A stretch of 36,197 bases of DNA, from positions 1 to 36,197 of the forward strand of contig CALWNI010000014.1 of assembly GCA_944382775.1 (NCBI GenBank). The letters run 5' to 3'. Of the stretch, positions 22,221 to 36,197 are shown piece by piece. The position numbers and the translations under genes were made by a program. Below the pieces are notes generated by a model. The model made no database searches. It had not been told where the DNA came from and saw only the letters and a program-made list of their open reading frames with translations. Numbering within the stretch: position 1 is the first letter of the stretch; each line of letters opens with the position of its first letter. The DNA comes from an uncultured Allofournierella sp. (GTDB lineage: Bacteria; Bacillota; Clostridia; Oscillospirales; Ruminococcaceae).

Positions 22221-22303
22221 ACGATGTGCTTTTTTTGGGGGGTGTTTGCGCTTAGTGCAAACAGTAACATCGTGCCGTGGTACAATGCTTGCTTTTATTG
22301 TAC
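22221..22303 (-). promoter_or_regulatory. Candidate attenuator structures in the cysK leader
   Basis: Three 7-bp stems can form in the leader: GTACAAT (22280-22286) with ATTGTAC (22297-22303); ACGATGT (22221-22227) with ACATCGT (22267-22273); and, inside the latter, TGTTTGC (22243-22249) with GCAAACA (22257-22263). All overlap the Cys codons or stop of the small reading frame. No U-run follows, so classic intrinsic termination is not evident. Confidence 0.45.
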
Positions 22304-22329
22304 AACAAAACGGTAGAACGTCGTGTCAT
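22252..22329 (-). CDS. Putative Cys-rich leader peptide (25 aa) upstream of cysK
   Basis: Within the cysK leader an ATG at 22329 opens a 25-codon frame ending in TAA at 22252. It begins MTRRSTVLLYNKSK and ends HCTTARCYCLH. Cys codons (all TGT) occupy positions 16, 21 and 23, a density far above the usual roughly one percent. A weak ribosome site (GCAGGCG) stands about 7 nt upstream. The frame starts about 27 nt after the predicted +1 and ends 66 bp before cysK. Position, Cys clustering and overlap with hairpins suggest a cysteine-sensing leader peptide. Chance is possible; no homolog is known to me. Confidence 0.5.
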   Translation of the reverse strand: MTRRSTVLLYNKSKHCTTARCYCLH

Positions 22330-22362
22330 GTTTTCGCCTGCTTTCTTTGTGAGATTGATTTT

Positions 22363-22391
22363 ATAATACCCCATATTTCCTATCTTGTCAA
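22363..22391 (-). promoter_or_regulatory. Promoter of cysK
   Basis: On the minus strand the consensus TTGACA (22391-22386), a 17-bp spacer and TATTAT (22368-22363). Predicted +1 near 22356 gives a leader of about 170 nt. Confidence 0.82.
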
Positions 22392-22431: not shown

Positions 22432-22463
22432 AAACAAAACGGGCAAAATTGCCCTTTTTGTTT
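22432..22463 (+). terminator. Terminator-like hairpin upstream of the XRE gene
   Basis: A 14-bp stem with one mismatch (22432-22445 with 22450-22463) and loop AAAT; the core GGGCA/TGCCC is followed by TTTTTGTTT. It sits between two divergent promoters, where no obvious transcript ends. Confidence 0.5.
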
Positions 22464-22464
22464 G

Positions 22465-22493
22465 CTGAAAGCTGTGTGCGTTTCTTTTATAAT
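22465..22493 (+). promoter_or_regulatory. Promoter of the XRE regulator
   Basis: CTGAAA (22465-22470), a 17-bp spacer and consensus TATAAT (22488-22493). Leader about 27 nt ending in CAAAGGAG. Confidence 0.65.
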
Positions 22494-22526
22494 AAAAGCA
22501 GAAAATCTTACAAAGGAGCGATTGGC

Positions 22527-22988
22527 ATGGCACTGGGAAACAGCTTGTTTCAAGCCCGCAAAAACAAAGGACTTTCACAAGAAGAGGTTGCCGAAAAACT
22601 GGGGATTAGCCGCCAAACCATTTCCAAGTGGGAAACCGACGAAACCCTGCCGGATATTCGGCAATCCAAACGGCTGGCACTTTTATACGGCTTATCGCTG
22701 GACGAGCTGATTGATTTTGATGTGGACATCAAAGAAATCCAAGATATTATTGACCGAACCAGCGATACTTTAAACGATAAAGTGGATTGGACCAAGGCAT
22801 GGAGCAAAAAGTATCCCATTTTGGCCCAGTACCAATCCCAAGTAGATACCCGATACTATTCTGCCGAACTGCTGAAATTGTTGATTGATTTGGAAAAACA
22901 GTACGGATACAGCGAACTGGATTCGATGCTTGTATTAAAGGATATCTTGGCGTCGGTTTGGAAAAACCGCACCAAAAAACAGCGATAA
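22527..22988 (+). CDS. XRE family helix-turn-helix regulator
   Basis: The 153-residue protein has an N-terminal Cro/CI-type helix-turn-helix (residues about 5-60: LFQARKNKGLSQEEVAEKLGISRQTISKWETDETLPDI), then an acidic stretch and a helical C-terminal part of about 80 residues without a domain I recognise. No membrane helix is seen, unlike many regulators with this N-terminus. The ATG at 22527 follows CAAAGGAG. It is monocistronic with its own promoter and a strong terminator. It is divergent from cysK; control of cysK or of itself is possible but not shown. Targets are unknown. Confidence 0.88.
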   Translation: MALGNSLFQARKNKGLSQEEVAEKLGISRQTISKWETDETLPDIRQSKRLALLYGLSLDELIDFDVDIKEIQDIIDRTSDTLNDKVDWTKAWSKKYPILAQYQSQVDTRYYSAELLKLLIDLEKQYGYSELDSMLVLKDILASVWKNRTKKQR

Positions 22989-23265: not shown

Positions 23266-24174
23266 TTATTCCTCGCTTATGTGATTGGCAGGCTCTTTCT
23301 CTGTACAAATTTGCTGCCAAGAATAGCCTAAACCGGCCGCTGCTGCAATCTGTGCCAGCCTGCCCTTTGGCAGTTCTGTGGGAATCTGCGGCGGCTCTTG
23401 CATGGCACCGGGGCATAAATCCAACAGCCAATAGCTTACCCCCTGCCAGCCCTGTTTCCAGCCGGTGCGTTTTTGCCTGCCTTCGCAGACAAACCCAAAG
23501 GATTCATGGAAGGCTTCGCTGGCGGGGTTGGGGTCCGCCAATACCGCATAGGCATTCCAATAGCCCTGCTCCTTTAATGCTGCCAAAAGGGCATGGTACA
23601 ACATTCGCCCTACCCCTAACCGCCGGGCACTAGGGGCAAGATAGATGGTGGTTTCGGTATCCCACGCATAGGCACCCGTACCGTAACGCCAAGGGTGTGC
23701 ACAGGCATAGCCCAAAACCTGACCTACCCCATTGCGCGCCACCAAAAAGGGCAAGTGTTTTCCTGTGGTACGAATTTCCTTTTCGTAATGCTGCACCGAA
23801 GGGGTGTCGTATAAAAACGATGCGGTTGAATGGTGCACATAGTAATCAAAAATATCATGCACCGCCCAGGCATCCTTTGCCGTGGCAGGCTGGACAAATA
23901 CAAAGGTATGTGCATCAAATTGGGCCGCCAATGCCTCTTTTTGCTGTTTGCTTTGCTTTTTCAGTTCGGCTTCCCGTTTGAGGGCTTGGCTTTTGTTGGG
24001 TAACGCCTCGGCATATACCAACTGCATGCCGCCAAACCCTTTGGTATACTTTGCCCCGGTTCCGCTTTTGTGCGCTTGCATACGGCGAACCAGGTCGTTG
24101 GTCCAACCGGTATACAGCGAGCCATTTTCACAACGCATCATATAGACATAGGCCGGCTGAATTATTTCTGACAT
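23266..24174 (-). CDS. Fusion of GIY-YIG nuclease domain and GNAT acetyltransferase
   Basis: The roughly 302-residue protein has two domains. The first (about residues 5-85) is a UPF0213-type GIY-YIG domain: YVYMMRCENGSLYTGWTNDLVRRM, then KYTKGFGGMQLVYAE and KREAELKKQSKQQKEAL. The second (about 90-255) is a GNAT resembling phosphinothricin-type N-acetyltransferases: VQPATAKDAWAVHDIFDYYV, YLAPSARRLGVGRMLYHALL (acetyl-CoA loop RRLGVGR), and EAFHESFGFVCEGRQ. A 45-residue tail follows. The two are normally separate proteins. I choose ATG 24174; an ATG at 24186 abuts its GGG ribosome bases. Substrates of both domains are unknown. It lies between the MYG1-like and DUF1653 genes. Confidence 0.85.
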   Translation of the reverse strand: MSEIIQPAYVYMMRCENGSLYTGWTNDLVRRMQAHKSGTGAKYTKGFGGMQLVYAEALPNKSQALKREAELKKQSKQQKEALAAQFDAHTFVFVQPATAKDAWAVHDIFDYYVHHSTASFLYDTPSVQHYEKEIRTTGKHLPFLVARNGVGQVLGYACAHPWRYGTGAYAWDTETTIYLAPSARRLGVGRMLYHALLAALKEQGYWNAYAVLADPNPASEAFHESFGFVCEGRQKRTGWKQGWQGVSYWLLDLCPGAMQEPPQIPTELPKGRLAQIAAAAGLGYSWQQICTEKEPANHISEE

Positions 24175-24189
24175 ATTCAATTTCATCCC

Positions 24190-36120: not shown

Positions 36121-36197
36121 GCGCTGGTAGCTCAGTTGGATAGAGTGTCTGACTACGAATCAGAAGGTCAGGGGTTCGAATCCCTTCCAGCGCACCA
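36121..36197 (+). tRNA. tRNA-Arg (anticodon ACG)
   Basis: The 77-nt sequence folds as a cloverleaf: acceptor GCGCTGG with CCAGCGC, D arm with AGCTCAGTTGGATAGAG, anticodon stem TCTGA/TCAGA with loop CTACGAA (anticodon ACG, decoding CGN, with A34 likely edited to inosine), and T arm with GGTTCGAATCC. The terminal CCA is encoded in the DNA and ends exactly at the window edge; more tRNA genes could follow. Confidence 0.97.

Follow-up and report, generated by a model that had tools for sequence, protein, structure and literature searches.

A leader ORF with a conserved Arg-Cys codon pair as a candidate cysteine sensor of cysK in Allofournierella and relatives

The cysK gene of an uncultured Allofournierella sp. 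is preceded by a leader that carries a small open reading frame (ORF) with three Cys codons, and this raises the question of whether the ORF reports the supply of cysteine to cysK and, if so, by what route. The stretch of DNA analysed here, referred to as the window, comprises the 36,197 nucleotides of contig CALWNI010000014.1 (assembly GCA_944382775.1). On the basis of conservation and codon choice, we propose that the leader ORF is probably a cysteine sensor of cysK that works by ribosome stalling and acts on translation or on mRNA stability. The argument draws on the following features, given in window positions.

22391-22363, minus strand: promoter of cysK, TTGACA-N17-TATTAT, 11 of 12 consensus matches
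22329-22252, minus strand: leader ORF of 25 codons, MTRRSTVLLYNKSKHCTTARCYCLH followed by a stop codon, from its translation and from positional counterparts in all six genus cysK orthologs found
22303-22297/22286-22280, minus strand: hairpin 1, 7 bp, within the leader ORF, functional evidence none
22273-22267/22227-22221, minus strand: hairpin 2, 7 bp, with hairpin 3 nested inside, conservation not significant
22272-22267, minus strand: codon pair CGA TGT (Arg20-Cys21), the proposed sensor, from genus and wider conservation and from codon choice
22263-22257/22249-22243, minus strand: hairpin 3, 7 bp, nested in hairpin 2
22200-22195, minus strand: AAAGGA, Shine-Dalgarno-like element of cysK, with predicted pairing to the 5' part of the leader ORF
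22185-21250, minus strand: cysK, cysteine synthase A, 311 aa (NCBIfam TIGR01139)
36121-36194, plus strand: tRNA-Arg(ACG, read as ICG), C32 present

The cysK leader in the window

The cysK product scored 470.5 bits against TIGR01139, for which the cut-off is 350.95. The promoter and the 25-codon frame reported in the initial annotation were both recovered, the latter with Cys at positions 16, 21 and 23, none of them adjacent, and since the ATG of the ORF lies 34 nt past the end of the -10 box, a transcript from that promoter would have an untranslated stretch ahead of the ORF, which would thus not be leaderless. Of 2000 dinucleotide-shuffled leaders, 26 contained an ATG frame of 8-45 codons that has at least three Cys, so that the frame by itself is unusual but not decisive. 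The ribosome site ahead of its own ATG (AAAGCAGGCGAAAACATG) is poor, which counts against our reading of this locus, and the genus relatives have AAAGGCGGCG at the aligned position. For the small-ORF counts that follow, a ribosome site was defined by at least four exact Shine-Dalgarno bases; the window passes this filter only via an earlier in-frame ATG inside the promoter, and it is on that account included in the tallies of frame lock, frameshifting, terminators, leader length and gene match.

The same annotation had placed the Cys codons on three alternative 7-bp stems and had suggested that ribosome stalling could refold the leader. All three stems are present, but they are mutually compatible, since the third nests in the second, and their number is within chance (mean of 0.93 in shuffled leaders, with 113 of 1000 shuffles reaching three). 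No conserved helix emerged over 39 leaders (mean z of 0.26) and refolding among the three stems is thus unsupported. Pairing of CGATGT with an ACATC-like word further downstream gave a p value of 0.05 in the window and was rejected as a conserved helix, as it was not significant over these 39 leaders. The consensus fold of four genus leaders contains 45 pairs, of which just two show double-sided changes (covariation term of +0.5), and the fold of the window leader has a z of -1.74, with 10 of 200 shuffles equally good.

Known RNA elements were also sought. A T-box had not been seen before cysK at first, and this holds: no Rfam family, T-boxes included, reached its gathering score in the leader region of the window, and in the loci of 10 relatives the only matches at gathering score were tRNAs, the list of weak matches being likewise without a T-box. 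None of ten NCBIfam leader-peptide models matched up to an E-value of 10. The initial annotation had remarked that no U-run follows the stems. In none of 41 leaders, window included, is the codon pair separated from cysK by an intrinsic terminator.

Conservation and codon choice of the Arg-Cys pair

When 61 genomes were searched at the DNA level with the leader region, just 4 of the 60 others matched, three in the promoter stretch and one where cysK begins, so that the conservation of the leader is one of position and not of plain DNA. The promoter stretch (22408-22361), where the DNA-level matches of the three relatives fall, is a possible regulator site. In promoters of other relatives, for instance that of locus L109, an inverted repeat, AAACCTAT..ATAGGTTT, directly follows the -10 box; an Rrf2-type regulator possibly binds here, which would add a second layer of control.

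Orthologs of cysK were found in six of the seven genus genomes, the seventh giving a weak match only, and all six are preceded by a leader ORF in which Arg-Cys is written CGA TGT T. The peptide of the window ends in TTARCYCLH, and the others read MRRIIQRVAWQGALARCCRSAVRAPLTGITL, MKRLSICAAAGGLARC, MKRLCVCIAAGGLARC, MKQLCVCMAAGGLVRC and MNRMYLCPAAGGLARC, each terminated by a stop codon. Arg-Cys is invariant among them and the additional Cys codons are variable, so that, of the three Cys in the window, only that following CGA is matched by a fixed counterpart. The alignment of related leaders, to which the initial annotation had looked for support of frame, Cys codons and stems alike, therefore sustains the frame and this one Cys codon, but not the other Cys codons or the stem pairing, the conservation of which is not significant. 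A pattern search of the genus gave 18 matches, four of which are cysK leaders, and its reversed control gave seven.

The wider sample consisted of the upstreams of 170 cysK loci, 168 of them distinct, taken from 90 family places (30 loci and 60 fetched) and from the 80 closest records. CGATGT occurs between -130 and -40 in 40 of 167 cysK leaders, compared with 2.65 expected from dinucleotide shuffles; of the 6-mers present in at least 12 leaders, just one, the -35 word TTGACA, exceeds it in enrichment. A hexamer this close to invariant, the window copy of which can pair with 22227-22221, could be an RNA or DNA site that reads as CGATGT (or as CGAATG, described below) by accident and functions independently of translation. 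The frame argues otherwise: among 45 occurrences between -150 and -30, a start codon with ribosome site lies in the CGA-TGT frame in 40 cases, the window being one of them only by its promoter ATG, compared with 3 and 4 for the other frames. The surrounding sequence moreover diverges synonymously, two motifs are tied to two genes and, as noted, the downstream complement is not significantly conserved, and we regard a translation-independent motif as quite improbable.

An Arg-Cys leader ORF was identified in 38 of the 65 cysK leaders that extend 75-330 nt behind a found promoter. The 54 shorter leaders have none and, where no promoter was found, 4 of 51 upstreams have one, a split that indicates a common but not universal device. 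One example comes from an isolate, Pygmaiobacter massiliensis (L143), with the leader peptide MQIIRAAGVVFRC ahead of its stop codon. Overall, 42 of 170 cysK loci have such an ORF, a minority of the distant relatives. Together with its retention in all six genus orthologs found, this favours the earlier proposal of a cysteine-sensing leader peptide before cysK, although stem refolding is not supported and the Rho option is contradicted in this genus; the translational route named there is retained as a candidate.

Codon choice was assessed in 232 small ORFs with a ribosome site from 245 of the fetched loci, each followed within 150 nt by a longer ORF; thinning of these small ORFs at 70% identity left 226 (six removed). 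Arg is encoded by CGA in 33 of 42 cases before Cys (p of 5e-19) and in 22 of 26 before Met (p of 6e-15) but in 42 of 342 before other residues, these p values serving as guides and not as exact figures since the loci were mostly gathered via cysK or metY similarity and share ancestry. Conversely, all 33 Cys codons that follow CGA are TGT, the other Cys codons being divided between 99 TGT and 82 TGC. The same loci contain 725 long open frames, in which CGA accounts for 8.1% of 15939 Arg codons, for 31 of 276 before Cys and for 20 of 259 before Met, and this low use indicates that the preference is no general codon-pair habit. The fixed CGA-UGU pair, like its CGA-AUG counterpart before metY, was absent from the initial annotation.

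The upstreams examined for CGA pairs were those of cysK, metY, cysE and trpE. For cysE, 30 loci were fetched and those of at least 1500 bases scanned, which gave four small frames containing Cys and CGA-Cys in none of them. The 15 trpE-type upstreams examined gave one weak candidate lacking CGA-Trp and thus no usable non-sulfur contrast. At locus L052, 170 nt ahead of the second cysK of genome G080, there is a frame MRCCCRCLYCC, closed by a stop codon, whose Arg codons are CGT and not CGA.

The metY counterpart and the decoding of CGA

The metY loci were defined as tblastn matches to the protein of locus L156 at an E-value of 1e-20 or better, and therefore include homologs; two of the encoded proteins, from L156 and L141, were tested and score above the TIGR01326 cut-off (O-acetylhomoserine/O-acetylserine sulfhydrylase). 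The metY genes often have a leader ORF of their own, with CGA ATG and then a Cys or stop codon, as in MKNYFERLVRANFRFGRMYC (one codon later), MNNYFQSLVRANFRFGRMCRC and MTDIFEELVRRNFRFGRM, all followed by stop. Some of these leaders, which end in GRM and stop, have no Cys codon, and that of L252 has CGA ATA instead of CGA ATG. The pair corresponds to the downstream gene. Among 171 cysK loci, 41 have CGA-Cys only, none has CGA-Met only and two have both; among 61 metY loci, none has CGA-Cys only, 17 have CGA-Met only and 12 have both. Most upstreams (128 of 171 for cysK, 32 of 61 for metY) contain neither pair, which weighs against our reading, as do the metY leaders just mentioned that have no Cys codon or have CGA ATA. 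In L141, L168 and L169, the metY leader begins MRCRMC(K/N) with the pairs back to back, as CGA TGT CGA ATG TGT; these loci belong to metagenome-assembled genomes labelled Fibrobacter in their own records, and L162, with the same label, has neither pair.

A FRFGRM-like block was compared by hand entry in eight of nine metY leaders, L131, in which the last Arg is also CGA, being left out. All pairs of the eight together show 105 synonymous and 40 non-synonymous codon differences, which is a coding pattern, and the last Arg is CGA in all eight, the other two Arg columns having four codons each. That FRFGRM is conserved as protein would be expected of a nascent-chain arrest peptide, in which the residues RC or GRM stall the ribosome on a small molecule and codon choice is secondary, and the frequent end of short ORFs right after Arg-Cys (TGA directly follows CGA-TGY in 15 of 57 cases) also fits such a peptide. 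Yet the codons are fixed despite synonymous alternatives, with the CGA and TGT counts given above, and the cysK leader peptides have little in common beyond Arg-Cys, so we consider an arrest peptide unlikely. A search for the metY pattern CGNTTYGGNCGAATGTG across the phylum (398 genomes) gave four matches, which by eye lie inside ordinary coding frames; this says little on the spread of the motif, since the pattern is narrow and only 6 of the 398 genomes come from the order of the window.

Both codons of the pair would be poorly read synonymous codons for their amino acids. In the Salmonella his leader, CGA is described as read slowly or poorly relative to CGU and CGC, and the same source cites the Cys tRNA as reading NNC faster than NNU (PMC4046918). 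The tRNA-Arg genes found in the window genome have the anticodons CCT, ACG (two genes) and CCG, of which ACG is the only kind able to read CGA; no tRNA-Arg(TCG) was found in this genome, which is 84% complete and in which 3 of 47 tRNA-like stretches received no ARAGORN call. Most likely, CGA is a slow codon placed just ahead of the sensor codon, where it would sharpen the response to uncharged tRNA. One of the tRNA-Arg(ACG) genes lies ~14 kb from the leader that uses CGA, on the same contig.

The choice of CGA over other rare Arg codons could also be accounted for by tRNA thiolation. In E. coli, tRNA-Arg1(ICG) with 2-thiocytidine at position 32 (s2C32) cannot wobble-bind CGA (PMC5372741). If this applied here, the leader would be a two-input sulfur sensor, in which CGA reads the s2C32 of tRNA-Arg(ICG) and hence spare sulfur, and the next UGU or AUG reads charged tRNA-Cys or tRNA-Met, the metY leaders with both pairs combining the two amino acids. 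The tRNA-Arg(ACG) of the window has C32, there is no tRNA-Arg(TCG) among those found and a TtcA-like protein is encoded in G000. Its score of 185.9 bits, however, is below the curated cut-off of 272 bits, as are the TtcA-like matches in all 61 genomes searched. Furthermore, a stall at CGA and one at the next codon would be just one codon apart, which leaves the switch unclear, and the link of CGA to sulfur genes rests on the four sets of upstreams named above, with trpE offering no usable contrast. A read-out of thiolation, and with it a two-input sensor, is therefore doubtful.

Output step and relation to known leaders

In the proposed mechanism, a ribosome that translates the leader ORF would pause at CGA-UGU near the 3' end of the ORF when charged tRNA-Cys is scarce. 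The paused ribosome would raise cysK output with neither intrinsic termination nor Rho: it could free or couple the ribosome site of cysK, or it could keep RNase J away from the 5' end of the transcript. CGA-AUG would serve metY by the same grammar, with the Met codon inside the ORF as putative sensor, and both pairs precede some metY genes.

Two other routes to cysK were considered. The combination of weak P-site wobble and a hungry A-site codon is a recipe for +1 shifts, and starvation could in this way carry ribosomes from CGA-UGU into cysK. At L100, L113 and L138 the +1 frame does run in frame into cysK. Over 42 leaders, however, the +1 frame stays open beyond the start of cysK in 15 cases and the -1 frame in 14, compared with 14.1 and 10.9 expected, and the distances are not conserved modulo 3; frameshifting is not supported and we give it hardly any credence. 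Rho-dependent attenuation, which is known for the tna operon and has been proposed for mycobacterial cys leaders, was one option offered in the initial annotation. The interval after the ORF is C-rich and G-poor in cysK leaders (skew of 0.246 vs 0.013, p of 5e-6), which speaks for Rho, but the same skew is not significant for metY leaders (0.103 vs 0.033, p of 0.11). No Rho over the curated cut-off was found in the seven genus genomes (G000-G006), where the best matches reach about 35 bits, and 8 of 14 control genomes exceeded that cut-off in the same search; five of the seven genus genomes are at least 94% complete and the window genome is 84% complete. Rho is therefore not the route in this genus, which contradicts the earlier option, and attenuation by Rho is very improbable as an explanation, the search among carriers of such leaders having covered this genus. 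Readings based on Rho are for this reason unlikely at other loci of the genus too.

For our preferred reading, a stalled ribosome that acts on translation or mRNA stability, RNase J was found in all seven genus genomes. In Firmicutes, the 5' end of ermC mRNA is protected by a stalled ribosome (PMC7509114), so that stalling near the 5' end can prolong mRNA life with neither terminator nor Rho. How far stalling itself sets the stability of erm mRNA is debated, to judge from the title of PMC5118997. Protection of the 5' end fits the cysK leaders, because it needs no conserved structure and RNase J is present. Control of the cysK ribosome site is the other candidate. Predicted pairing of this site with the stall region was 0.153 in native and 0.083 in mismatched leaders (41 leaders, p of 0.058), and the gain from stall-dependent opening was small (0.05-0.06); in the window this pairing is nil, which is a further point against our explanation, and the predicted partner of the site is instead the 5' part of the ORF. 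Pairing of the ribosome site with the stall footprint is thus only suggestive as the output step, and control of the ribosome site and mRNA protection are both kept as candidate routes. In comparison with ermC, the signal here would be an amino acid and not a drug, and a sequestering hairpin is not established.

There is a close likeness to the Cys-rich leader ORFs of Actinobacteria, where such ORFs with no terminators were predicted (PMC1262725), and to the cysteine-responsive polycysteine short ORFs shown in mycobacteria (Canestrari et al. 2020, as cited in later work). The mycobacterial leaders share with those described here a small Cys ORF before genes for cysteine, the position of Cys codons close to the stop codon and the lack of a clear terminator, and translational control is cited for mycobacteria. 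The window has a Cys-containing short ORF upstream of a cysteine gene, kept in close relatives, but lacks the leaderless ORF with consecutive Cys codons: mycobacterial ORFs are described as leaderless with Cys-codon runs, whereas the ORF here lies downstream of the transcription start and often has a single Arg-Cys, with CGA-UGU fixed and a CGA-AUG counterpart for metY. The uORFC-8-2 motif upstream of cysS in Rhodobacterales shares a leader ORF with conserved Cys codons but has tandem Cys codons, a terminator-like stem with a U run and a dominance of UGC (PMC8632094), unlike the UGU after CGA seen here. Attenuators of the trp and his type likewise have codons for the product in a leader ORF; they differ in having a terminator, which the window and the other 40 leaders lack in the interval from the codon pair to cysK, and the stems of the window are compatible and within chance, with no significant helix, rather than mutually exclusive and conserved.

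Some leaders do resemble classical attenuators. A Cys leader ORF together with a terminator-like stem and U run precedes cysK in L106, L111, L121, L130 and L153, where the stem lies upstream of the Arg-Cys ORF, and this tandem layout possibly represents two cysteine controls in series. In L106 and L121, a first leader ORF that contains several Cys codons clearly precedes the stem. Cys leaders of the terminator type were also recognised by eye before metY in L002, L125 and L248 and before a metY homolog in L018. The antiterminator pairings in all these attenuator-like leaders were judged by eye.

No CGA-Cys or CGA-Met leader before cysK or metY was found in the titles and abstract openings listed by searches of an open-access collection, which lacks most subscription journals. 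What appears to be new is that the codon pair is fixed and that it goes with the downstream gene. The regulatory codon is usually considered alone; here its 5' neighbour shows a strong preference too (CGA), the wobble base of the sensor codon itself is kept constant (UGU) and a different gene downstream comes with a different pair. Such a codon-pair rule would provide a sequence criterion for these leaders, and synonymous swaps would probe how codon context tunes starvation sensing. In Firmicutes, T-boxes and not attenuators are the usual device for synthetase genes (PMC1262725). If true, our reading would add a leader-peptide route to sulfur control in Clostridia.

Two neighbouring genes were also noted. 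A divergent gene at 22449-22988 (plus strand), which adjoins the cysK promoter, encodes a helix-turn-helix protein (Pfam HTH_3), and at 23266-24186 (minus strand) a single ORF fuses a GIY-YIG catalytic domain to a GNAT acetyltransferase domain.
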